Positions 30,263 to 44,192 of a stretch of 64,000 nt of DNA are shown one piece after another. Source of the stretch: Verrucomicrobium spinosum DSM 4136 = JCM 18804 (GTDB lineage: Bacteria > Verrucomicrobiota > Verrucomicrobiia > Verrucomicrobiales > Verrucomicrobiaceae); NCBI RefSeq assembly GCF_000172155.1, contig NZ_ABIZ01000001.1, positions 4,001,105 through 4,065,104 of the forward strand, written 5' to 3'. The first letter of the stretch is position 1, and each line of letters starts with the position of its first letter. The position numbers and the translations under genes were made by a program. A model generated the notes under the pieces. That model did no database searches. It saw only the letters and a program-made list of their open reading frames with translations, and was not told the DNA's origin.

Positions 30263-31315
30263 TCACGGCTTTCTCGCCCCCAGCTTTCGCAACGTTTTGT
30301 AGGTTTTAGTGTATTTCCAGAGGCGTGACTTCAGAGTCTCGCCTATCTGCTGACGTAGCGCATCCAGTTCCCTGCGTGAGGCCTTTAGCAGGCCTGCCAT
30401 CTTCTCTCGCTCCATGGAGCCAGCCTCAAGCTGCCTCCTCAAGTCTTCATTCTCCTGTTTTGCCAGATCCAGCGTCTGCTGCAGGTCCCCACACTTTGTC
30501 ATCAGGGAAACCACGCCGGGATGCAAGGCATGAGGGTTGTTGGTAACAACAATGTCATTAACGGAATTGAAGCATGCCATATTGTCATGCACCAGCTTCA
30601 TGGCTGCTTTAACAGGGTCCGCATCCATCCGTTCAAGCAAAACCGCCTCACTCTCGCTCTTGTTTACCCTGTAAACGAACTCAAACTGGGAGGTGATGCG
30701 GCGCATGAAGTCCAGGGGATGATTCCTGCTCTGGGATATCAAGCACCAGCTATTGAGCTCAAAGTAAACGACGGGGTTGAAACGCGCCAGGGTCGCCGTC
30801 GCCCCGTCAAAAAACTGTGGCTCGTGCCCTTCAATATCCACCTTGATGAAATCAAGACGTTCAAGCCCCAATCTGCCCACAAGATCATCCAACGCAAAAC
30901 CCTCGATGTCGCTTGCCGATACTGAATCGCTTTCGCCGTCTGGCTCAATATAGCCAAAGGCTGAATTTTCGAGAAACCGGACCCGTTGTGTCTTGTCTGA
31001 AACCGCCTGATGATAGGCATCCACATTGGAAACGGCATTGTTTTTCAAATTCTCCTGAAGAAGCTGAAAAACCGTTTCCCCAGGCTCGAACGCAAACACC
31101 CTGCCTGATCTCAATCGCTCGCTTAAAATCAGCGACGTCACACCAATGTTGGCCCCCACATCAAGTGCAACGGCATCCTCAGCCAAAAACAGTCGGCAAA
31201 AGTGCTGAAACCTCGCTTCAAATCTGCCCTCAATGGCGTTGAAATACCGATCTGTGTCCGACACACCCGCCACCACGAAGGACCGACCGTTGACGCTGAA
31301 ACACCTTGTACTCAT
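30263..31315 (-). CDS. FkbM-family methyltransferase with coiled-coil tail
   Basis: The 350-residue protein has an FkbM-type S-adenosylmethionine-dependent methyltransferase core (about 45-215): VALDVGANIGVTSLILSERL, VFAFEPGETVFQLLQENL, FIKVDIEGHEPQFFDGA. Such enzymes methylate sugars of polysaccharides or antibiotics. The last 90 residues are a charged coiled coil (LAKQENEDLRRQLEAG, ASRRELDALRQQIGETLK). The ATG at 31315 is the first ATG before the conserved part; the open frame extends to a TTG at 31396. It is isolated among mobile-element debris, with no glycan cluster nearby. Confidence 0.85.
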   Translation of the reverse strand: MSTRCFSVNGRSFVVAGVSDTDRYFNAIEGRFEARFQHFCRLFLAEDAVALDVGANIGVTSLILSERLRSGRVFAFEPGETVFQLLQENLKNNAVSNVDAYHQAVSDKTQRVRFLENSAFGYIEPDGESDSVSASDIEGFALDDLVGRLGLERLDFIKVDIEGHEPQFFDGATATLARFNPVVYFELNSWCLISQSRNHPLDFMRRITSQFEFVYRVNKSESEAVLLERMDADPVKAAMKLVHDNMACFNSVNDIVVTNNPHALHPGVVSLMTKCGDLQQTLDLAKQENEDLRRQLEAGSMEREKMAGLLKASRRELDALRQQIGETLKSRLWKYTKTYKTLRKLGARKP

Positions 31316-31826
31316 GCAGAAAGGACAAACTACCCAGCAGCATAGATTGTCGTAGAAGGCATTCAAGCCTGGACACACGTCAAAAAAGTAGGCCAAGACC
31401 TGCGCCCGGCCGGACGTCTGGCCTTGGTCAAAGGGGGAGGAGATTACCTATCGCCCGGACTAGAACCTCCACTCAAAGCCGCCATCGAACGAGATTGGCT
31501 CGCCGGGATGGGAGCGGTTTGGGCCGGTCATACGGGTCTGCGAGGGGTTTTGCCAGGTGCGGGTGTTGTCCACCCACTTCCACATCATGGTAGAGGCACG
31601 GAAGCGACCGGAAGGGGAAGGGTTCTCGGATGAATGGCCGCTCAAAGCAGGCGGCAGATGGCTCGTCCTAGGCTTCGCTCCGCCCCTGAAGGACTTCGCA
31701 CGAAAGTGGCCCGCGAAGACTGGATGAACATCCCATCGCCTGGTCCTATTCACGAGAAGGGAAACCCAAGGCACGCGAGATCGTCCTGGAGCAACCAGTC
31801 AGACTAAGGCACCGTACCCGTTGCAT
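31316..31826. other. Stretch with a possible outer-membrane protein tail
   Basis: No complete gene is seen. A minus-strand frame ending at 31460 translates to TMMWKWVDNTRTWQNPSQTR and then EPISFDGGFEWRF with stop. The alternating aromatic ending with terminal Phe resembles the last strand of an outer-membrane barrel, so this could be a gene tail, but no barrel precedes it. Confidence 0.35.
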
Positions 31827-32174
31827 ATGAAAGGCCCCGTGTACACCCGTCTCCTGAAACTGTCGGGCATTCTCGTGCTGGCAGCATTTGGCGTCGCCGC
31901 CTCCTTCATCCCCTGGGGGAGGGAAGACTCACTCCACGGCACCAGGTTCCCAGTTTTCACAGTAGCCTGGGACAGAAGCAAGGATACCGGCCTGTTCCTG
32001 GATTACCCCAATCCGCTCGCCTACATTCTGCTACAAGCTCACAATGCCCCACGTATGGGTGGTGTGTTTCTAAACAGAACTCAGGAAGTCTCGTTGAACA
32101 ATATGAAACCGATGAACGATACTGCCGAGTGGCTTGCGGAAAAGCAGAAAGCAATCCAATTGGGCGTGGCCTAG
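31827..32174 (+). pseudogene. Chimeric hypothetical frame with membrane-protein head
   Basis: The 115-residue frame opens with a membrane helix (LLKLSGILVLAAFGVAASFI) followed by FPVFTVAWDRSKDTGLFLDY and PNPLAYIL. The TGLFLDYPNPL-YIL block recurs in a second fragment at 33994-34133, where it continues differently (NPLLFVVVGVLTFSAARW). The first copy was therefore probably cut near 32030 and joined to unrelated sequence (QEVSLNNMKPMNDTAEWLAE). The frame after its TAG remains open into the interrupted gene that follows. Confidence 0.4.
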
Positions 32175-32262: not shown

Positions 32263-32287
32263 GGCTCTTCGCTGTTATGGGTGGGTA
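32263..32287. repeat. Left terminal inverted repeat of ISL3 element
   Basis: It begins GGCTCTTCGCTG and ends GTGGGTA. It pairs with the right end at 20 of 25 positions. The target copy CAAAAAAT lies immediately to its left. Confidence 0.9.
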
Positions 32288-33525
32288 AATGCGGGCCGGA
32301 GCTTCAAGTCCAGATCTCCTGCCATCCAGTACGCAATGGCTTGGAAGTTGGCAAAGTTGCGAAAGCCCCTTGCCCGCCGGCGGGCGGTTTGAAGGATCCC
32401 GTTGATGGCTTCAATCGCCGCCGACGTAACCCGGTTGGGGTAGTACGCAAGGATTCCCGCCCAGTGCTTTTTGATCGTGCGTGACAACTTGCGGAACGAC
32501 TCCAGCCGGCTCCGGTCTGCCCACTGACACCATCGCTTGAGATGATGCTCTGCCATGAAGACCCCTGGCCACTCCCATGTCTCCTGCAGGTGCTCACGCA
32601 GCGCAAGGGCACGGCCAATTTCCTTGTACCGGGCGCACAACTCGTCTCGCAACTGCTTCTGCGAGGCTTTGAGCCCCTCCCAATTGCCCCTCAAGGCCCA
32701 CAGCCCCCCTTTGACATCGGCACCCATGCGATGCAGTTGCTTGCGCACCGCATCGGTGGCCTCCTGGGCCAGCTTCATGACGTGGAAGCGGTCAAAGACC
32801 ACTTGCGCTGCGGGGAAGTGCTCCGCCGCTCCCTTCTGATAAGCGGGGCTCAGATCAATGGCCACCACTTTGACCTGGCTTGGCTGCGCCCCATGCGCGG
32901 GCATGGCTTGAGCCACCAGCTCGACACACTCGCCACTGCGCCCCGGGGTCATGAACAACAAGCGTGCTGAGGCTCCTGTCTCAGGTCGAAGATCAACCGC
33001 CACTGTGGCATAGCGGTGGCCTTTGCGCGTGGCAGTCTCATCAATGGCCAGAACATGGACCTCGCTCCAGTCTTGGGAAGCATGGGCCTGTCCCACATAG
33101 TGATGCACCACCCGCCACAACCGGGTGTCGGTCTCTCCCACCAGACCGGCCACCGCGCTGACGGGCATCTCTCGGGACAGGGCCATCACCAGCGCTTCAA
33201 ACATCAGCGTAAAGCCGCTGCCCGCTCGCGCCCAAGGAACCTCCACCTGCCTCACCCCGTGTTCAGGACAATCCACCCGCGGCACCCTCGCACTCAAGTA
33301 AGTGGCATGCTGCCAGAAGTTCAAATGCCGCCAGCGCTTCAACTCGTGATCATAGGACGTGCAAAGCTTGCTACAGCAGGGACAGGGCAACTTCGCACCG
33401 GACTGCACCTCAATCTCCAGGCACAGGAACATCTTGCCGCTCTGATCGCGCTCCAGACCACTGCCGATGACCTTCCAAGGTGCCGTCAGCCCCAATGCTG
33501 CCTCAAACAAGCTGTTCTGATCCAT
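32275..33525 (-). CDS. ISL3-family transposase
   Basis: The 416-residue DDE transposase is full length. It has an N-terminal zinc-binding region (CPCCSKLCTSYDHELKRWRH, CPEHG), a helix-turn-helix region and the DDE core: VHVLAIDETATRKGHRYATV (first Asp), VKVVAIDLSPAYQKGA (second Asp) with VVFDRFHVMKLA, and SAAIEAINGILQTARRRARG (Glu). It catalyses cut-and-paste movement of its element. No frameshift is seen, so it may be active. Confidence 0.96.
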   Translation of the reverse strand: MDQNSLFEAALGLTAPWKVIGSGLERDQSGKMFLCLEIEVQSGAKLPCPCCSKLCTSYDHELKRWRHLNFWQHATYLSARVPRVDCPEHGVRQVEVPWARAGSGFTLMFEALVMALSREMPVSAVAGLVGETDTRLWRVVHHYVGQAHASQDWSEVHVLAIDETATRKGHRYATVAVDLRPETGASARLLFMTPGRSGECVELVAQAMPAHGAQPSQVKVVAIDLSPAYQKGAAEHFPAAQVVFDRFHVMKLAQEATDAVRKQLHRMGADVKGGLWALRGNWEGLKASQKQLRDELCARYKEIGRALALREHLQETWEWPGVFMAEHHLKRWCQWADRSRLESFRKLSRTIKKHWAGILAYYPNRVTSAAIEAINGILQTARRRARGFRNFANFQAIAYWMAGDLDLKLRPAFTHP

Positions 33526-33806: not shown

Positions 33807-34170
33807 GATAAAAAAGATCTCTGTCACACGCCACAGGGCAAAAGGCCGAGACGGCGTTTGTGGGGCAAACGCTGACCAAAGTCCTCGAAGCCCTCAAGAC
33901 CAGTGAGTCGGCCGTCCGTCCACCTCAGACTTCACACCGGGCCAACTCACCGCTGTTGCCTTTCCGGTCGAATCCGACGGCCGATGGCTCGTGCCGGTGA
34001 GACCGGCCTGTTTCTGGACTACCCCAATCCGCTCGGATACATCCTGAATCCCTTGTTGTTCGTGGTTGTTGGAGTTCTCACGTTTTCCGCAGCGCGATGG
34101 TGCTGGAGCCAGTTGAACAGAAACAGGTCCTGAACGGCACCCCTGCACCCCTCGCGAATCGAGATGGTCA
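33807..34170 (+). pseudogene. Gene-fragment mosaic with second TGLFLDYPNPL copy
   Basis: No intact gene is present. At 33994-34133 a fragment reads MARAGETGLFLDYPNPLGYI and then NPLLFVVVGVLTFSAARWCW, sharing its core with the frame at 31827. Just before it another frame reads TPGQLTAVAFPVESDGRWLV, and earlier FVGQTLTKVLEALKTSESAV, each broken by frame changes. The area looks like decayed coding DNA. Confidence 0.45.
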
Positions 34171-37100
34171 TCAATCTGGCGTGTGCAACTGAGATTTCAT
34201 ACTTTCGACTACATCCCCCTTGCCATGTGGTGCGTGGCTTCGCTTTCTGTAATCGCTTAGCATGCGGTTCAAAATCCTATCTTGCCATACCGTTTTCGAG
34301 TGGAATGCAATAACTATGCAGCTAGCCAGTATGTTACTTTCACCCTCCCTTTTCACATTAGCTTTGTCGCCCAGTTGTCGAACCTTCTCTATCTGATCGC
34401 CCGTGAGATTTGGCGCCCACCTTGATCGAGGTAATCCCATCTGGGTCCACAGAGCTACGGACGCTAATTCCTGAATCCCTTCGATTTCGCTTTCCAACCA
34501 GATTTCAAGAATGGAATCACGCCCTATGTCAGAAAGTTGGGTTGATGACTCACTGTAGTACGCCATGAGAGTCCAAGCCCAAATTGCAGCACCCACCACC
34601 GCGCTAGATCGATGCTTCAAGTTTGCAACAACTGGCTCTCTTAGAATGATCCATTCATTTAGGTCAAAGTGTCCTTCGGATTGGGTGTCAAATCGATCTG
34701 CTATGGCGAACAAGCCTCTGGCCACAAGCTCGTCCTCATCGCTTGTTAGCAGGCAATTGAGTTGCGGGTCAATTTTCCCTTTGGTCACCGCTTTCCCGGT
34801 CAATATTGCTCCCGCAATCGTGGCGCAGACGGAGTGTTGATATCTGAATGGGTGATCAAACCTCCTAAATAGCAACCATGAGTGGTGAAACAACTCTGTG
34901 CCATATGGGCCACGACCAATTGTACGAAGGTCCAGCGAATCTTGGCCTATCTTTGCGCATGACGCCACTACTTGAATTGCGGACGTAATTGTCTCAGGTG
35001 AAGCTTCAGCTTCTTCAACAAGACACTGCATGATTCGCGGGATCGCTGGATCTAGATGCTGCCATGAACTTTTGCTCACACCTTTGTCCGCGCGGGCTTG
35101 CGTGGTCGATTCGGGGTAGCTGACCCTTCTGATTAACTCAAGAATCAAGGGTTCAGCCTGCTTGCGTGACAAGACCGCAGCCATTGGAACAACTTCTTTC
35201 CACTCATCTGAGAGCAAACAATGCGCCAATGGAGTAAGGACGTTGTCATTGGTTTCATAGTCAAGATAATGCCCCTCGGCCGCAGCTACTGCGGCAAGGT
35301 ACTCTTGGAATGTTAAATGTCTAAACTGATAAAATGGAACCGTTATACCTGCATCAACCTGCCGACCGGCTTCTAGCAAGACGCTGGAACGCAACTCGAC
35401 TCTCTTGAGGAACTCAAGTGGAGAACCTTTGGAATATCGCCGAATGTGAGGCAACCGATCTCGAGCCTCTTCCAGAAGCTTCAATAGCTCTTTTTCAGTC
35501 GCAGTCTGTTTACCTTGCTTCATAAGCTGAAAAGCAATACAGGCAAGTTGCGGCACGGACTCTTTGAGATTGAGCGGCTCATGTCCTTTGATGTTCCATG
35601 TATCAAGCAAGACCTCGACTGCTCGGCCATACAAACTGACGCGATCAGGAGGGAGGCGACCTGCGCCGTGCTTCACCACCAAAAGCATCGTTAAAAGCAG
35701 GGGGTTTTCAGCAAGCCGATTTAGTGAAGGATTGGACAGCAACTGCCGAACAACCTCACCCATTTCCTCCACTGCTTCACTGGAATCTCCTGCCATGAGG
35801 CACCTCCAATGGTCACACAGGCTTCTAATTGCATCCGGTTCCAAAGGCGCAACTCGCCATCTTTCGCAAAACCTGGATAGCCGCGGTGCAATCAATCCAA
35901 ACCCCGCTTCGCGACTTGTCACAACTAACTTTATCCTTGGATACTGATCCAAGAATGCCTCGAGGTGCTCAACAAATGACTCGCGTCCAGCATCATCATG
36001 TATCTCGTCCAATCCGTCAACAAGCAACAAAACGTTGCCAGCTTGAAGCAACGGAACTAAAGCTTCCCGTAGACCGTCAAGATCAAGTTGACCGGTAATG
36101 GCGGCAAGGTTTCCAAGAAGTGTCAAAATTGGCTTTCCTATATATTCTCGCCATTCTCGGCACCTTATTAGAACTGGCGTGAGGTCAACTGACGGCAAAT
36201 GATCTTCAGTTGCGTTACGGCGATTGGGATTAGCATATGCTACTGCAAGGCGCTTCAATAACAGCGTCTTGCCGCCACCTGGCAAAGCAAGGAGTGCCAA
36301 ACAGCGTTTAGATGTGAACGCCTTTCCGAAGTCGACAGGCTTTCCGAATCGTTTTACCCACTTGTCCAGTTTTTGTTGTGCCTGGGGGTCGTTTTTAGAG
36401 AACTCTGGAGAGCATCTAGTTACCTTCAAGGGCACAAAAAGGCGCTCGAGATCAAACTTGCGCTGACCAAGCTCCATGTCCGCCCGCACACCTTCGATGG
36501 TCATTTGACCACAGTCTCTCACGAGGTACTCCCTGTATCGTTGGAGCAGCGCCCTTGAATTAGCGTCGTCATTCACGCTGGGCCCGCTTGGTGCAATTGA
36601 CTTATTTTGTAAATTTTTGGAGGGCAGAAGGGAATCTAAAAATTGGGGGAGATCTTGAAAACGCTCCCCGTATCCTATTGGCTCAACAAACCCACGCCAA
36701 CTAGGATCAGCGTGGCGCATCGAAACTTGTGAGTTGAGTACCAATGCATAATGTTGGGGGGCTGCGGTGTTCATTTTCTCTCGCAACCATTTCACTAGGG
36801 CCGTGAAATTGGGGTCACTGAATGTCTCCCCGCAGCCGACAAAAAGCAAACGTTTGAATGAGCACATGCTCTTTTGCATGAGATCGCGAATTTCGCTTCG
36901 CAGTGTTGCGTCGTAGTCTCGTATGCCTAGAACGCAAGTGGCAGGTCTAGTCCATGAGCCGTGGAGATGTAGGATTCCATCGGTTTCATTTCGCATCCAC
37001 GATGCTGCTTGTTTTACTTCATCCAAAGTGATCGCCTGACTACTTGTCACCGATTCCAGCAGGTGGTCGTAGTTTAATGTGCAGAAGGGTATTCTAGCGT

Positions 37101-37524
37101 TCTTTAGACCCACAATTGATCTTGCCAACGCCTCATTGCATGCGAATTCTGCTTTGAATACATGTTCCAGCCAACGCGAGTAGAGGTCTCCATTTGGCGC
37201 AGATAATTTGCGACTCACGAATTCCGCGGCGCCGAGCAAGTCGTCAATGTCTGTTGAATTGAGTTGGGCTTGCCACGCAGCGAATTGCACGTCGGATATA
37301 AGACCTTTTTTTTGCGCATGGGCGAATCCATCTTGCACGAGGCCTGCCCATGACATTGATGGCATTTTCCCCTCAGTCAGCGCGATGCTCACGCCGGTTC
37401 CGACAACTAACACAAGCTCCTGACGCGCTATTGATTCTTTGATCTGTGCCAAATCACTGTGTTGATTTATGCCTTGGACTGGATTGACATTGGCTTTGGG
37501 GCTTTTTTTGCTTCGCATTTTCAT
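34171..37524 (-). CDS. SIR2-NACHT protein, probable antiphage STAND
   Basis: The 1117-residue protein has an N-terminal SIR2-like NADase domain (about 30-300): GTGVS at 42-46, CTLNYDHLLE (N151), ILHLHGSW (H188) and FVGCGETFSDPNF. A NACHT NTPase (about 400-700) follows, with Walker A LPGGGKT (K419) and Walker B VLLLVDGLDE (D503, D506/E507). The rest is helical, HEAT-like, the usual sensor region. In characterised bacterial STAND defence proteins, ligand binding drives oligomerisation and SIR2 domains deplete NAD+, killing the infected cell. The gene is AT-richer than the chromosome around it and lies among transposon relics. Confidence 0.92.
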   Translation of the reverse strand: MKMRSKKSPKANVNPVQGINQHSDLAQIKESIARQELVLVVGTGVSIALTEGKMPSMSWAGLVQDGFAHAQKKGLISDVQFAAWQAQLNSTDIDDLLGAAEFVSRKLSAPNGDLYSRWLEHVFKAEFACNEALARSIVGLKNARIPFCTLNYDHLLESVTSSQAITLDEVKQAASWMRNETDGILHLHGSWTRPATCVLGIRDYDATLRSEIRDLMQKSMCSFKRLLFVGCGETFSDPNFTALVKWLREKMNTAAPQHYALVLNSQVSMRHADPSWRGFVEPIGYGERFQDLPQFLDSLLPSKNLQNKSIAPSGPSVNDDANSRALLQRYREYLVRDCGQMTIEGVRADMELGQRKFDLERLFVPLKVTRCSPEFSKNDPQAQQKLDKWVKRFGKPVDFGKAFTSKRCLALLALPGGGKTLLLKRLAVAYANPNRRNATEDHLPSVDLTPVLIRCREWREYIGKPILTLLGNLAAITGQLDLDGLREALVPLLQAGNVLLLVDGLDEIHDDAGRESFVEHLEAFLDQYPRIKLVVTSREAGFGLIAPRLSRFCERWRVAPLEPDAIRSLCDHWRCLMAGDSSEAVEEMGEVVRQLLSNPSLNRLAENPLLLTMLLVVKHGAGRLPPDRVSLYGRAVEVLLDTWNIKGHEPLNLKESVPQLACIAFQLMKQGKQTATEKELLKLLEEARDRLPHIRRYSKGSPLEFLKRVELRSSVLLEAGRQVDAGITVPFYQFRHLTFQEYLAAVAAAEGHYLDYETNDNVLTPLAHCLLSDEWKEVVPMAAVLSRKQAEPLILELIRRVSYPESTTQARADKGVSKSSWQHLDPAIPRIMQCLVEEAEASPETITSAIQVVASCAKIGQDSLDLRTIGRGPYGTELFHHSWLLFRRFDHPFRYQHSVCATIAGAILTGKAVTKGKIDPQLNCLLTSDEDELVARGLFAIADRFDTQSEGHFDLNEWIILREPVVANLKHRSSAVVGAAIWAWTLMAYYSESSTQLSDIGRDSILEIWLESEIEGIQELASVALWTQMGLPRSRWAPNLTGDQIEKVRQLGDKANVKREGESNILASCIVIAFHSKTVWQDRILNRMLSDYRKRSHAPHGKGDVVESMKSQLHTPD

Positions 37525-37628
37525 GGCCTCATTATTTTCATCGACAAATTAGACAAGAAATGTTTTGCTATAGGAAATCAAGTCCAAATAGAACGTTTAG
37601 CGTTTTTTGGGTGGGAGCTCTCGGCGCC

Positions 37629-37793
37629 CTACCCATTCCGCCTTTTTTTGGCTGTTGCAGTTTGCAACGAGCTTTGTATAGCCCAAAATTCATCGAGATC
37701 CCTCCACTCATTGTCGGTGACGCGCCCCACTGTGTGGTGCGCAATATTGGGGTAACTTTTCGCGATTCGCGTGCACTCGGCACACTTGGGCAT
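37629..37793 (-). CDS. Possible small CxxC protein or gene remnant
   Basis: From an ATG at 37793 a 54-residue frame reads MPKCAECTRIAKSYPNIAHH and GRVTDNEWRDLDEFWAIQSS. It is in frame with, and downstream of, the IS630 relic, so it may be the surviving end of a gene truncated by that element. It lies 104 bp upstream of the SIR2-NACHT start on the same strand. The CxxC could bind zinc. No family is recognised. Confidence 0.35.
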   Translation of the reverse strand: MPKCAECTRIAKSYPNIAHHTVGRVTDNEWRDLDEFWAIQSSLQTATAKKRRNG

Positions 37794-37825
37794 GGATGTC
37801 GGCAGCTTGCGCCGTCCAGGCAAAC

Positions 37826-38379
37826 AGGTTGGATCCTTGTTGTAACAGGGCTCGTAGGCGTCGATTGCGCAGATCAGGTCGGGCACACCATGGAGCCTCA
37901 GCGCAGTCGTTTGGTGGTGATGTCTCGAAAGAACCTCTCCACCATATTGAGCCACGAGATGTTTGTCGGGGTAAAATGCACCTGGATTCGAGGGCATCGC
38001 CTGAGCCAAGCCTGCCCCGGGGCGTGGTTGTGCGTTAGCATAGTTGCCGACGATGAGACGCAGGTGCTTGTCAGATGGTGTCGGGACTTGAGGAGTTTCA
38101 GCTCCTCCTGGGGTCGGTGTTGTTGCTGACGGGTGCTTATGACCGTGGCGTCTGCCACGTTGAGCGATGCAAACAACGTGGCGGTGTACCGTGCCGTTTG
38201 TAGTCATGGGTGAAGGTGGCGGCGAGCCCCGTCTTTAATGCCAGGGCCTGACTCCTCTCGTCACTACTCAGAACCAACACGTGCTCCACAAGACGCTGAG
38301 GGCTAAAAGCGCTTCGAGATAGGCTCTCTAGGGTTAACTCTTGCTTCTCATGCAAGGCGATGGTGACGGCATTGGACAT
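37826..38379 (-). pseudogene. IS630-family transposase relic
   Basis: Pieces in three frames match IS630 transposases: AVTIALHEKQELTLESLSRS, ALALKTGLAATFTHDYKRHG, SLNVADATVISTRQQQHRPQ, KHLRLIVGNYA, VHFTPTNISWLNMVERFFRD with ITTKRLR, and VPDLICAIDAY. The catalytic-domain start is missing and several frameshifts occur. It separates the protease gene from the SIR2-NACHT gene. Confidence 0.85.
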
Positions 38380-38493: not shown

Positions 38494-39237
38494 CTAAAAT
38501 TTGTCTCTAAGCAGGGAATGTTCGTCCAAGTAGTCGATCCTGCTTACAAGGAGAGGTGATTGCGAGTCTCGTCCTTCGTAGAAGATTCCAATGATCAATG
38601 GCCGGTTCTCCCTAAAAATGAATGCTGGTGATCCGCTGGCACCTCCAAGCATTGAGCTAGTTGTGTACAAGTCCGAATTGCCATTGCTTACGATATTGGC
38701 CTGGTTTGGCCAAAGGTGTACATGCCTAATTCCAACATGTGCTATGGGATACAAGGCCGCCCAATAGTCTTCTCGGATAGGTAGGGACAAGAGATGTCGA
38801 CCAACGCTGGGATAACCTATAACGTAGCACTCTTCACCCTCTAGAGGTTTAGGGATTGGGTGAGGCTGAGTGAAAAACTTCTCCTCTAGAGTAGAAGGGT
38901 CTGAAAATATTGGGGTCGGCTGTGTAGTGGTGAAATATGCTTGATCAAGTTCACGGGATTCGGATTTCTCCCACAAGTGGAGTTCTTTGATGATGCAAAG
39001 GGTGCCTGAAATTGAAAACACTACCCGCCCTTGGGGATGGGATCTGCGAAAAATCTCCATCTCGTCCCAGACGTGAGCGCATGTAGCATGCAATTGAATT
39101 GCTCCACTGCGCATTCTAAAGCAAGTGCCAAGCGGGCGCCATAACTCTGGTTTTTGAATATCGTAGGCTAAGTAGATCGGCGATACACTCTTCCTTAAGT
39201 GGTCTCCGAGTTTAAGCAGTTGTTCGGAGAAGTTCAT
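38494..39237 (-). CDS. Trypsin-like serine protease, cytoplasmic
   Basis: The 247-residue protein looks like a chymotrypsin-fold peptidase: H55 in LHATCAHVWDEM, D98 in SRELDQAYF and S203 in MLGGASGSPAFIF. There is no signal peptide or membrane segment, unlike most bacterial trypsin-like enzymes, so it probably acts in the cytoplasm. It is AT-rich, lies at the island's right edge beside the liv operon, and shares strand with the SIR2-NACHT gene 970 bp downstream, with an IS630 relic between. A role as accessory defence protease is possible but unproven. Confidence 0.75.
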   Translation of the reverse strand: MNFSEQLLKLGDHLRKSVSPIYLAYDIQKPELWRPLGTCFRMRSGAIQLHATCAHVWDEMEIFRRSHPQGRVVFSISGTLCIIKELHLWEKSESRELDQAYFTTTQPTPIFSDPSTLEEKFFTQPHPIPKPLEGEECYVIGYPSVGRHLLSLPIREDYWAALYPIAHVGIRHVHLWPNQANIVSNGNSDLYTTSSMLGGASGSPAFIFRENRPLIIGIFYEGRDSQSPLLVSRIDYLDEHSLLRDKF

Positions 39238-39386: not shown

Positions 39387-40094
39387 CTAATCCCCCAAAT
39401 AAGCCTCGCGAACCTGCGGATTCTGACGTAGAGCCGCCGCGGAGTCTTCCAAGATCACTTTCCCAGTCTCCAGGACATAACCGTAGTGGGAGATGGCCAA
39501 CGCCAGGTTGGCGTTCTGTTCCACCAGCAGAATCGTCAGGCCGCGCTCTTTGTTGATCTTGACGATCTGGTCAAAGATGGCGCGGACGAGCATGGGTGCG
39601 ATGCCGAGGGAGGGCTCGTCCAGCATGAGGCACTTGGGCTTGCTCATGAGGGCCCGGGCGATGGCGAGCATCTGCTGCTCACCACCGGAAAGGGTGCCGG
39701 CGAGCTGGGAGATGCGCTCCTTGAGCCGGGGGAACATGGTGAAGGCGTAGTCCACGTCCTCCTTGATACCGGCTTTGTCCCGACGCAGGTAGGCACCCAT
39801 TCTGAGGTTCTCCTCAACGGTCAGGTTCGCGAAGACCATGCGGCCTTCCGGCACATGGCAGAGGCCCTTGGAGACCACGGCGTGAGGGGACTGGTTGGTG
39901 ATTTCCTTCCCGTCGTACTTCACCTGACCGCCACCGGCGCGGATGAGGCCGGAGATGGCGCGGAGGGTGGTGGACTTGCCCGCGCCGTTGGCCCCGATGA
40001 GCGTGACGATGGACTTCTCCGGCACCTTCAGGGACACCCCGTGCAGGGCCTTGATCGTTCCGTAGGAGACTTCGAGTTGGTTGACTTCAAGCAT
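39387..40094 (-). CDS. livF: Branched-chain amino-acid ABC ATPase LivF
   Basis: The 235-residue ATPase drives import of branched-chain amino acids or related compounds together with LivG. It has Walker A GANGAGKST, signature LSGGEQQ and Walker B KCLMLDEPS, and the LivF-type end (VREAYLGD). The ATG at 40094 overlaps the livG stop by 8 bp and gives the standard length; an ATG at 40112 would add six residues. It is last in the liv operon. Confidence 0.95.
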   Translation of the reverse strand: MLEVNQLEVSYGTIKALHGVSLKVPEKSIVTLIGANGAGKSTTLRAISGLIRAGGGQVKYDGKEITNQSPHAVVSKGLCHVPEGRMVFANLTVEENLRMGAYLRRDKAGIKEDVDYAFTMFPRLKERISQLAGTLSGGEQQMLAIARALMSKPKCLMLDEPSLGIAPMLVRAIFDQIVKINKERGLTILLVEQNANLALAISHYGYVLETGKVILEDSAAALRQNPQVREAYLGD

Positions 40095-40875
40095 CGAGCG
40101 GGCCCTTTCCATCCTCGGTGCCCAGGTAGGCGGCGATGACTTTCGGGTTGCTTTGAATTTCTGCGGGCGTGCCTTCAGCGATCTTCACTCCGTACTCGAG
40201 CACGGCGATGCGCTGGCAGATGCCCATGACGACCTTCATGTCGTGCTCCACGAGCAGCACGCTGATTTGGAATTTGTCTTTGATGAACTGGATGAGGTGC
40301 ATGAGCTCCTCTTTCTCCGTGGGGTTCATCCCGGCGGCGGGCTCATCCAGCAGCAGGAGCTTGGGCTTGGTGGCCAGGGCGCGGACGATCTCCAGGCGGC
40401 GCTGATCACCGTAGCAAAGCGACTTGCACGGCGTGGACGCCTCCTTGCCCAGATCGAAGATATCGAGCAGGTCGAAGACCTCGTTCTCGATCATCGCCTC
40501 CTCATCCAGGAACGCTGGTCCGCGGAAGAGGGAATGGGCAATGCCATGCTGCAGGTGCATCATCTTGGCCGTGCGCACGTTGTCGAAGACCGACAGCGAG
40601 GAGAACAGGCGGATGTTCTGGAAGGTGCGGGCAATGCCGAGCTTCGTGATCTGGTGCGGCTTGTGCCCTGGCACGGAGACCCCGCCGAACTTGATGCTGC
40701 CGCCCGTGGGCTGATAGACCCCGGTGATGAGGTTGAACACCGTCGTCTTGCCGGCACCATTGGGCCCAATGAGGCCGACGAGTTCACCCGGCTGGATGGA
40801 GAACGTCAGGCCCCCGACAGCGCGCAAGCCGCCGAACTGGATGGTGACGTCGTTGAGTTCAAGGACCGAACTCAT
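40087..40875 (-). CDS. livG: Branched-chain amino-acid ABC ATPase LivG
   Basis: The 262-residue ATPase has Walker A GPNGAGKTT, a LivG-type segment (KPHQITKLGIARTFQNIRLF), a signature region reading LCYGDQRRLE and Walker B LLLLDEPAAGMNPTE. It forms the nucleotide-binding half with LivF. Its start overlaps the end of livM by 4 bp, and it has one of the few purine-rich sites in the window (GGAGGA, 7 bases before ATG). Confidence 0.95.
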   Translation of the reverse strand: MSSVLELNDVTIQFGGLRAVGGLTFSIQPGELVGLIGPNGAGKTTVFNLITGVYQPTGGSIKFGGVSVPGHKPHQITKLGIARTFQNIRLFSSLSVFDNVRTAKMMHLQHGIAHSLFRGPAFLDEEAMIENEVFDLLDIFDLGKEASTPCKSLCYGDQRRLEIVRALATKPKLLLLDEPAAGMNPTEKEELMHLIQFIKDKFQISVLLVEHDMKVVMGICQRIAVLEYGVKIAEGTPAEIQSNPKVIAAYLGTEDGKGPLDA

Positions 40876-41849
40876 GCGGACTTCCTCCTTTTCTTCTCAA
40901 AGGTGACGGGCAGAAGGCCCTGAGGCCGGACAATCATCATGATGATAAGCAGGATCGAAAACACGATCATGCGGTATTTCTCGGCATCGCGGAGTTGCTC
41001 ATTTAGCACGGTCAAGCCGATGGCAGCGACTACGACACCCAAGGTGCTGCCCATGCCGCCGAGGATGACCATGATGATGATGTCCACCGACTTGAGGAAA
41101 CCAAAGCCCTTAGGATCGATGGCACCGAAGAGGTGGGCGTACAGTCCACCAGCGAGGCCCGCGAAGAAGGCGCCCAGCACGAAGGCCACCACCTTGTAAC
41201 GCACCGTGTTCACCCCCATCGATTCACTGGCGACCTCGTCATCCCGCACCGCCAGGAAGCCCCGGCCGTAGGTGGAGTTCACCATGGAAGCCACGACATA
41301 GATGCAGATGGCAGCGATCCCGAAGACCCAGAAGAAGGTGGTGTAGTCTGGAATACCCCGCATGCCCAAAGCACCGCCGAAGGGGCCATTGCTGGCGGTA
41401 TTCTGGAAGATGACCCGGATGATCTCATTGAACCCGAGGGTGACAATGGCGAGGTAGTCGCCCCGGAGACGAAGGGAGGGCACGCCTACCATCCAGCCGC
41501 AGGCCGCCGCACAGAGGCCGCCGACCAGCAGGGAGATGATGAACGTGACGGCATGCGGCGCAGGTCCGGGGCCACCCAGGAGGTTCATCAGAGAGGGCCC
41601 CATCTCCACCGAAACGGCAGCCGCCATGTAAGCGCCTACGCCCATGAAGCCGGCGTGTCCCAGGGAGAACTGACCGGTGTGGCCATTCACCAGATTCAAG
41701 CTCACGGCGAGGATGATGTTGATGCCTGCGATCAACATGATCTGCAGGACATAGGCATCGATGTTGTCTGATGCCTGCGAGACCCCGAAGCTGACCAGCA
41801 GGGCCAGCAGGAGGAGCGCTTGAGTACGGTACTTGAGAAGAAATTGCAT
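40872..41849 (-). CDS. livM: Branched-chain amino-acid permease LivM
   Basis: The 325-residue inner-membrane protein has about eight to ten helices and LivM-family blocks: ISLNLVNGHTGQFSLGHAGF is seen here as AVSLNLVNGHTGQFSLGHAG, plus GDYLAIVTLGFNEIIRVI and the late GGMGSTLGVVVAA. It pairs with LivH as the membrane channel. It starts 11 bp after livH ends. Confidence 0.95.
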   Translation of the reverse strand: MQFLLKYRTQALLLLALLVSFGVSQASDNIDAYVLQIMLIAGINIILAVSLNLVNGHTGQFSLGHAGFMGVGAYMAAAVSVEMGPSLMNLLGGPGPAPHAVTFIISLLVGGLCAAACGWMVGVPSLRLRGDYLAIVTLGFNEIIRVIFQNTASNGPFGGALGMRGIPDYTTFFWVFGIAAICIYVVASMVNSTYGRGFLAVRDDEVASESMGVNTVRYKVVAFVLGAFFAGLAGGLYAHLFGAIDPKGFGFLKSVDIIIMVILGGMGSTLGVVVAAIGLTVLNEQLRDAEKYRMIVFSILLIIMMIVRPQGLLPVTFEKKRRKSA

Positions 41850-41860
41850 CGTGACCAGAT

Positions 41861-42784
41861 TCAGACCTTTTCACGTTCCACCTTGCCAAGCAGACCCGAG
41901 GGCTTGAACAGCAAAATGAGAATGAGGATGACGAAGGCGACGCCCTCCTTATACCCCGAAGGGATGCCCAGCTTCTGGCTGTAGCCGGTGACGAGAGTCT
42001 CCACCACGCCAATGATCATGCCACCCAGCGCGGCACCAGGGATGTTGCCGATGCCTCCCAGCACGGCTGCCACGAAGGCCTTGATGCCTGGCTGGATGCC
42101 CATGAAGGGATCCACGGAAGGATAGAGAGATGCGTACAAAATGCCGCCGGCCGCCGCGAGGGCAGAGCCAAGGCCGAAGGTGAAGGAAATGACCACGCTG
42201 GTATTCACCCCCATGAGGGCGGCCGCAGTGGGGTTCAAGGAAAGGGCCCGCATGGCCAGCCCCAACCGGGTGCGCATGACGATGTAGCGCAGTCCGACGA
42301 GGAGGGCGGTAGTCACCACCACCACAATGACCTGCGTCATAGTCACCGTCAGCCCGCCCAGTCCGCTGATGTTCTGCCGGGGGATCAGCGCCGGGAAGGG
42401 CTGCTGCGTGGCCCCGAAGACGAGCTGACCGGTGTACTCAATGAAGAGCGAGACCCCGATGGCGGTGATCAGGACGTTGAGCCGCGGGCGATTGCGCAGC
42501 GGCCGGTAGGCGAAGTATTCAATCGCAATACCGAGGGCCGCGCAGATCGCCATGGAGGCGAGCATCACCACCGCGAGCGCGAGGGGCCAGGGCAGGCTGT
42601 TCAGCAGGGGCTCGAGGGCCTTGTGGACATAGAGTCCGCCAAAGGCCCCGAGCATGAAGACATCCCCGTGCGCGAAGTTGATGAACCGCAGGACCCCGTA
42701 CACCATCGTGTACCCCAACGCGATCAACGCGTAGATGGCACCGAGGAACAGGCCGTTGAGAAGTTGCTGAACGAACTGATCCAA
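41861..42784 (-). CDS. livH: Branched-chain amino-acid permease LivH
   Basis: The 307-residue permease has multiple helices and LivH blocks: LFLGAIYALIALGYTMVYGV, FINFAHGDVFMLGAF and PGIKAFVAAVLGGIGNIPGA with LGGMIIG. Together with LivM it forms the translocation path. It lies 71 bp after the substrate-binding protein gene. Confidence 0.95.
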   Translation of the reverse strand: MDQFVQQLLNGLFLGAIYALIALGYTMVYGVLRFINFAHGDVFMLGAFGGLYVHKALEPLLNSLPWPLALAVVMLASMAICAALGIAIEYFAYRPLRNRPRLNVLITAIGVSLFIEYTGQLVFGATQQPFPALIPRQNISGLGGLTVTMTQVIVVVVTTALLVGLRYIVMRTRLGLAMRALSLNPTAAALMGVNTSVVISFTFGLGSALAAAGGILYASLYPSVDPFMGIQPGIKAFVAAVLGGIGNIPGAALGGMIIGVVETLVTGYSQKLGIPSGYKEGVAFVILILILLFKPSGLLGKVEREKV

Positions 42785-42855
42785 GGTGCGCTCTCGATTA
42801 AGGGTGGGGCTGCTGCGTCAGGTCAGATGAGTTAGCGAGAGTTCCTAGAGCGAAA

Positions 42856-44007
42856 TCAGGGAGCGACCGTTTCGACGTACACGAACTTGCCGTCCTTGAT
42901 CGTGAGGACGACCGCGGGCTTGTTGGCGTCGCGCTTGGCGTCCAGGGTGATCTTGCCGGTGATGCCTTCGAAGTCCTTGGTGGCGGCGATCGCGTCACGC
43001 AGAGCCTTGCCTTCCGTCGTGCCTGCACGCTTGATGGCGTCCACCAGGATCATGGCGGAGTCATAACCCAGAGCGGCCATGGCGTCAGGGATGGTGCCGT
43101 GCTTGGCCTTGTACTTGGTGACGAACTCCTGGATGCGGGGTGCGGTGTCCTCGTTGGAGAAGTGGTTGGAGAAGAAGGAGCCCTCAATGGACTTGCCCGC
43201 CACCTGCACGAGGGAAGGGGAGTCCCAGCCATCGCCACCCAGAAGGGGGGCCTGGATGCCGAGTTCCTTGGCCTGCGTGGACATGAGGCCCACTTCATTA
43301 TAGTAGCCGGAGGCGAGGATGGCATCGGGAGCGCCTTCCTTGATGGAGGTGAGCTGGGCCTTGAAGTCCTTGTCCCCGGAGGCGTAGCTCTGCTCGCCCA
43401 CGATGGTGCCGCCGTTCTTCGTGAAGTACTCCTTGAAGTACTGGGAGAGACCCACGCTGTAGTCCTGCGTGACGTCCGTCATCACAGCCACCTTCTTCCA
43501 GCCACGGGCGAGGGCGAACTTGGCCATCACCGTGCCCTGGAAGGGATCAATGAAACACACGCGGAAGATGGAGTCACCGGTCTCCGTCACCTTGGGGTTC
43601 GTGGAGGCAGGGGAGATCATGGGAATGCCCGCCTTCTGGGCGATGGGGGCCATTTCCAGGGAGCGGCCAGAGGCCACTTCACCCAGCAGGGCCACCACCT
43701 TCTCACGGCTCACGAGCTTCTTGGCCACGATGCCAGCCTCGCCCTGCTTGGACTGGTCGTCCTCGGTCACGAGCTTGATCTTCTTGCCCAGTACCCCGCC
43801 AGCAGCGTTGACCTCGTCAATCGCCATCTGCGTGCCAGCATGGGAGGACTGGCCGAAGGTGGCCGTGCCGCCCGTCAGGGCCGCCACCTCGCCGATCACG
43901 ATGGTGTCGGCATCAGCAGCGTCGCCGCTCTTTTTACAGCCAGTCAGACCGGCGGTGGCGACGCCCAACAATCCAAGGAGGAGAAAAGCACGGTTGCGGA
44001 TTTGCAT
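42856..44007 (-). CDS. livK: ABC substrate-binding lipoprotein LivK/LivJ-type
   Basis: The 383-residue periplasmic-binding protein has a lipoprotein signal (MQIRNRAFLLLGLLGVATAG then LTGC), so it is membrane-anchored. It has the Leu/Ile/Val-binding fold: GEVAALTGGTATFGQSSHAG, KLVTEDDQSKQGE, MISPASTNPKVTETGDSIFR and DGWDSPSLVQVAG. It delivers the ligand to LivHM. The ATG at 44007 gives a proper lipoprotein signal. The ligand could be amino acids, urea or amides; sequence does not decide. Confidence 0.93.
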   Translation of the reverse strand: MQIRNRAFLLLGLLGVATAGLTGCKKSGDAADADTIVIGEVAALTGGTATFGQSSHAGTQMAIDEVNAAGGVLGKKIKLVTEDDQSKQGEAGIVAKKLVSREKVVALLGEVASGRSLEMAPIAQKAGIPMISPASTNPKVTETGDSIFRVCFIDPFQGTVMAKFALARGWKKVAVMTDVTQDYSVGLSQYFKEYFTKNGGTIVGEQSYASGDKDFKAQLTSIKEGAPDAILASGYYNEVGLMSTQAKELGIQAPLLGGDGWDSPSLVQVAGKSIEGSFFSNHFSNEDTAPRIQEFVTKYKAKHGTIPDAMAALGYDSAMILVDAIKRAGTTEGKALRDAIAATKDFEGITGKITLDAKRDANKPAVVLTIKDGKFVYVETVAP

Positions 44008-44192
44008 GGAGGGACTGTTTAGCAGCCACCGTTCCACGGGCAAGGGGAAAAGCCGTACGTACTCCACTTCATTTGCGATGTGGGAAATTGCAGGAAAAAG
44101 GAATCTTTCCCACAGAGGTTGCCTCGCGGCGGAATGGTGGTTTGATCGGGGTCGGTTTTGTTCCTGTTCCCGATTCTTTTTGCCCCCCTCTA

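Follow-up and report, generated by a model that had tools for sequence, protein, structure and literature searches.

A SIR2-NACHT gene of Verrucomicrobium spinosum, probably a horizontally acquired NLR-like immune receptor with a fast-diverging presumed sensor

Does the large AT-rich gene embedded in mobile DNA of Verrucomicrobium spinosum DSM 4136 encode an antiphage protein and, if so, of which kind? We addressed this question in a stretch of 64,000 nucleotides (contig NZ_ABIZ01000001.1, positions 4,001,105 to 4,065,104), referred to as the window. An initial annotation had described a single gene of 1117 residues that joins a complete-looking SIR2 site to a NACHT NTPase and a long sensor-like end, and had called its product a probable antiphage STAND protein. 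Indeed, the reading frame is real, free of internal stops and located on the minus strand, which had been left unstated; it comprises 1125 open codons, whereas no frame exceeded 245 when the slot was shuffled 500 times. The gene has a GC content of 0.49 against 0.60–0.61 in its flanks and is thus AT-rich, as had been claimed.

34171..37524, minus strand: SIR2-NACHT-helical-tail gene, 1117 aa, with ATG at 37524 and stop at 34171
37527..37530, minus strand: ribosome-binding site GAGG, by direct reading of the sequence

The encoded protein consists of the following parts, given from the N-terminus:

36619..37452, minus strand: SIR2_2 effector domain, residues ~25–302, from Pfam SIR2_2 and the sequence and fold match to FAM118B
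36313..36618, minus strand: conserved linker or pre-NACHT region, residues 303–404 (RDCGxMxIEG...LFVPL), 43–52% identical across relatives
35725..36312, minus strand: NACHT nucleotide-binding part, residues 405–600, with Walker A K419, Walker B D503–E507 and sensor R538
35125..35724, minus strand: NACHT helical and winged-helix part, residues 601–800 (FRHLTFQEYLAA), the best conserved part
34174..35124, minus strand: presumed sensor, a helical solenoid, residues 801–1117, from conservation and the AlphaFold2 model

Profile searches matched both named domains above the Pfam cut-offs, SIR2_2 with E 2.2e-18 (67 bits, cut-off 24.5) and NACHT, barely, with E 9.8e-7 (29.2 bits, cut-off 26.7). The sequence hallmarks of a SIR2 NADase, namely an NAD-binding GxG motif and a catalytic Asn/His pair, are found as GTGVS at 42–46 (VGTGVS, 41–46), N151 in TLNYD and H188 in HLHG, and the NTPase motifs as LPGGGKT with K419 and LLLVDGLDE with D503, D506 and E507, so that all of these residues lie where they had first been placed. 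We additionally recognised a NACHT winged-helix motif, FRHLTFQEYLAA, which the initial list did not include. The protein therefore has the NACHT module of bNACHT proteins (Walker A, Walker B and winged-helix motif), as indicated by Pfam, the motifs and the fold discussed below, preceded by an N-terminal effector. When the window protein was aligned with five relatives (six rows, five of which cover N151), N151 was invariant in all five covering rows, and H188, K419, D503, D506, E507 and R538 in all six; A replaces T43 and V45 in some relatives, and the other named motif residues are identical wherever they are covered.

In the same alignment, the identity to the five relatives is 45–58% in the SIR2 part, 58–64% in the NACHT nucleotide-binding part and 63–78% in the helical and winged-helix part (43–78% for the effector and NTPase parts together), and then drops sharply to only 13–26% over the last 317 residues. 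Judging from these sequences, an effector and motor that stay constant while the tail changes would be expected of an immune receptor whose sensor tracks its target; relaxed constraint could also yield a conserved body with a divergent tail. The tail was said to give no family clue, and this holds: no Pfam family matched residues 801–1117, and nothing below E 0.1 was found when the tail profile was searched against PDB sequences. Modelled alone with AlphaFold2, the tail is all helical with a mean pLDDT of 76 and a pTM of 0.75, better than in the full-length model. Its likeness to armadillo/HEAT solenoids is generic, with Z scores of 9–12 that helical repeats reach by chance; the best Foldseek match was to designed armadillo repeats (E 2.6e-4), and no viral structure matched the tail fold below E 0.001. 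The initial idea that the tail may recognise an undescribed phage trigger is a guess; our data point to no particular trigger. The C-terminal region is predicted to be a divergent helical solenoid and is the presumed sensor, and profile, conservation and fold comparisons together back the three-part reading of a predicted SIR2 NADase, a NACHT module and a helical part predicted to sense.

The full-length AlphaFold2 model was built from a five-row alignment that left out the row from the plasmid collection; it is fair for the SIR2 part and the tail, and weak over residues 539–654 and 710–788. The best fold match of the SIR2 part was human FAM118B (Z 20.4, rmsd 3.4, 275 residues aligned), followed by the antiphage proteins DSR2, KomC and ThsA (Z ~17–19), and the NACHT part matched NLRP3, NOD2 and NLRP9 (Z ~13 over ~180–200 residues). 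By sequence, FAM118B was again the best solved relative of the SIR2 domain (E 4.8e-19; profile 5.9e-29), with ThsA at only 0.0036. Three further bacterial proteins (L011, L031 and L035) show this preference too, in that their SIR2 domains all matched FAM118B far better than ThsA, DSR2 or KomC, and the likeness is therefore a property of a wider bacterial SIR2 set and not specific to this gene. FAM118B, a human SIR2-like immune protein ('SIRal'), differs from the window protein in being a stand-alone, filament-forming SIR2 protein that works with FAM118A (PMC12700824) and has neither NACHT nor sensor. DSR2 and ThsA share the SIR2 fold and the catalytic Asn/His pair with the window protein, but their sequence similarity is weak, DSR2 has no NACHT, and ThsA has SLOG or macro domains and a TIR partner. 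An identity as Thoeris ThsA was rejected, as the window protein has a NACHT in place of a SLOG/macro C-terminus. Lastly, animal NLRs of the NLRP3/NOD2 type have, besides the NACHT fold, an FxHLTFQEYLAA-type winged-helix motif in common with the window protein, whereas they carry CARD/PYD where it carries SIR2, and no leucine-rich repeats were recognised in it.

The order of the parts (SIR2, STAND, C-terminal repeats) is that of Avs5 (AVAST type V), a SIR2-STAND protein known to hydrolyse NAD+ upon sensing phage (PMC12931631). Avs5 has been solved as filaments, and EfAvs5 and the AVAST5 filament are among our fold matches (9jap Z 15.0; 9nc9 Z 17.4). The NTPase of Avs5 proteins, however, is nSTAND3 (PF20720; PMC12931631), while a Pfam scan to E 0.01 returned NACHT and no nSTAND3 for the window protein, whose best NTPase folds are the NACHTs of NLRP3 and NOD2. 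No Avs5 model was matched in PADLOC, and the sensor of PaAvs5 is of the TPR/Sel1 type (PMC12931631). Because of this difference in the NTPase, we regard the SIR2-NACHT protein as almost certainly not an Avs5.

Full-length relatives, 43–53% identical, occur in a Rubrivivax genome (L007), where an integrase lies 1 kb from the gene, in a Sphingomonas bin (L008), in a Shewanella bin (L006) and in an IMG/VR contig (L029) that is phage-derived and encodes an integrase, a tail protein and an Rz spanin. The conjugative plasmid pAt2788a of Agrobacterium carries another copy, which adjoins McrC and is broken, since an annotated IS3 transposase splits it (L030:8455–9668). A SIR2-NACHT protein related more distantly (27% identity) is encoded on an Azotobacter chroococcum plasmid (L031:6001–9186); its C-terminal HEAT-like repeats are near-identical and could expand or contract. 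Among 388 sampled genomes from the phylum of the window (its own included), no other full-length relative was present. Deeper sampling of Proteobacteria, with 399 genomes from the order of Rubrivivax, 369 from the class of Rubrivivax and 385 from that of Sphingomonas, yielded only the known carriers. The protein had no tblastn match in the phage genome collection and the gene no blastn match in E. coli genomes; when viral contigs were searched with a profile, nothing beyond distant NACHT stretches was gained. The scattered distribution of the relatives across phyla points to horizontal transfer, with which the low GC content of the gene agrees, and the gene in the window is best read as horizontally acquired, a member of a rare, mobile and patchily spread branch. 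The company kept by the relatives, namely phage-derived DNA, an integrase and, on a conjugative plasmid, McrC, also speaks for the initial antiphage assignment.

The gene occupies a variable slot behind livF, with the following neighbours:

39387..44067, minus strand: branched-chain amino-acid ABC transporter operon, the livF end of which (39383) is one border of the slot
38494..39237, minus strand: orphan gene with a trypsin-like peptidase domain, also within the AT-rich slot (GC 0.47; Trypsin_2 match at E 6e-4, under the cut-off)
37629..38379, minus strand: degenerate transposase remnants between the two cargo genes, IS630-like by eye, from translations
33831..34102, plus strand: flanking-gene remnant that delimits the slot on its 3' side, with another fragment at 31644–32030; 80–84% identical to positions 108–678 of L053 (G001)
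32275..33525, minus strand: intact ISL3-family transposase gene past the 3' end of the SIR2-NACHT gene (Pfam DDE_Tnp_ISL3 E 7e-62)

The congeners G001 and G003 are 92–93% identical to the window through the transporter genes up to 39383, where homology stops, and the flanking-gene remnant ending at 34102 matches the sequence immediately outside HyoA in G001. In G001 the slot is filled by one AT-rich gene of 1452 aa (L053:866–5224), which passes the NCBIfam cut-off for the NACHT antiphage protein HyoA (1259.7 bits against 1200), and in G003 by an AT-rich cassette from L051:2790 that starts with a Drt8-type reverse transcriptase (DRT8-type; PADLOC E 7e-139), while in the window the SIR2-NACHT gene shares the slot with transposase debris and the orphan trypsin-like gene. 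As the cargo thus differs between HyoA, a reverse transcriptase and SIR2-NACHT, this genus has a hotspot for defence cargo behind livF, and this positional evidence is the strongest new support for an antiphage role. The hotspot is shown for this genus alone, since livF in a neighbouring genus (G004, G014) was not seen to be followed by any similar AT-rich defence cargo.

Several other genes in these stretches deserve mention. The orphan trypsin-like gene has TCAHV and GASGSP motifs (by eye) and weakly matches a LmuA model (E 1.4e-5); it may be a leftover of another defence system in the slot. A role as conserved partner of the SIR2-NACHT gene was rejected, as no such neighbour was noticed beside the relatives. 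An FkbM-type methyltransferase gene (30263–31396, GC 0.51) in the same AT-rich stretch is probably separate foreign cargo. Beside the Drt8-type reverse transcriptase of G003 lie three AT-rich ORFs (L051:4428–9273; 454, 224 and 651 aa) that matched nothing in Pfam or PADLOC; the ORF of 224 aa looks cyclase-like by eye. As to the NACHT antiphage proteins HyoA and EruA, the window protein does not match the HyoA model, and its similarity to EruA, seen in all 5 members, is weak and restricted to the NACHT stretch (26.8 bits against an NCBIfam cut-off of 1000), so neither identity was retained; our literature search on HyoA and EruA found no paper.

The mobile-DNA setting that had been reported for the gene is borne out by the ISL3-family transposase gene past its 3' end and the transposase debris past its 5' end. 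Transposase debris and pseudogene fragments on both sides are also what one would see around a once mobile gene that has lost its expression and become a dead relic, and because IS elements have decayed its immediate neighbourhood, this strain might not express the gene at all. In contrast to the broken remnants of the transposase and of the flanking gene beside it, though, the SIR2-NACHT gene retains an intact frame of 1117 codons, a ribosome site and all catalytic motifs, and we therefore consider a relic very improbable. The finding of relatives on a phage-derived contig and a conjugative plasmid raises a different alternative, namely that plasmids, satellites or other mobile elements are the main targets of the protein, or that it provides addiction or superinfection exclusion for the elements carrying it, and does not defend the host against lytic phage. 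Against this, the alternative occupants of the slot, HyoA and a Drt8-type reverse transcriptase, are both classed as antiphage proteins of the host, and defence genes borne by phages are known to target competing phages (PMC9122126); we hold such a role to be improbable, if somewhat less so than a relic.

A host defence reading agrees well with what has been described for related proteins. Many bacterial NACHT proteins have an N-terminal TIR or Sir2 domain, and NACHT proteins protect against phages (PMC10952713; PMC12169576). The window protein resembles the bNACHT antiphage proteins in its N-terminal effector and central NACHT, in being encoded by a single gene and in its link to defence islands; its helical C-terminal part would correspond to their sensor, and it differs from bNACHT25 and bNACHT32 in having SIR2 where these have a nuclease effector (PMC12169576). 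We conclude that the gene, acquired horizontally, probably encodes an NLR-like (bNACHT) immune receptor, related to the inflammasome proteins of animals, which would work on its own as a single-gene abortive-infection system. A mechanism can be proposed by analogy with bNACHT proteins (PMC12169576), Avs5 (PMC12931631) and antiphage SIR2 proteins (PMC12700824 and references there). In the uninfected cell, an ADP-bound NACHT module would hold the protein inactive. The fast-changing helical tail (~801–1117) would recognise a phage component or an infection-induced change of the host, upon which the NACHT module would swap its nucleotide and oligomerise. Oligomerisation would gather the N-terminal SIR2 domains and thereby activate NAD+ hydrolysis through N151 and H188, and the resulting NAD+ depletion would halt growth or kill the infected cell ahead of phage release.

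This is a known kind of defence protein, since bNACHTs with SIR2 effectors have been described as a group (PMC12169576, and the work of Kibby et al. as cited in PMC10952713) and STAND proteins with a SIR2 N-terminus occur in the hotspots of P4 satellites (PMC9122126), although the string 'SIR2-NACHT' itself was not found in the literature searched. What we rate as new is a rare SIR2-NACHT subfamily with an undescribed, fast-diverging presumed sensor. A bolder and, in our estimate, unlikely idea is that STAND-linked bacterial SIR2s are the bacterial lineage nearest to vertebrate FAM118 and that the armadillo-like tail reads phage proteins which no described defence system reads; if STAND-linked SIR2s were indeed nearest to FAM118, the ancestor of the human immune sirtuin could have been the effector part of an NLR-like phage sensor. 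In summary, the protein would add to NLR-like antiphage immunity a rare SIR2-NACHT family that moves horizontally and is known from Proteobacteria and the genome of the window. The livF slot marks a place at which defences of the NACHT, SIR2-NACHT and reverse-transcriptase kinds substitute for each other within one genus. With a FAM118B-like SIR2 and an animal-type NACHT in one polypeptide, the protein may offer a compact model for how NACHT oligomerisation might activate a FAM118-like sirtuin.
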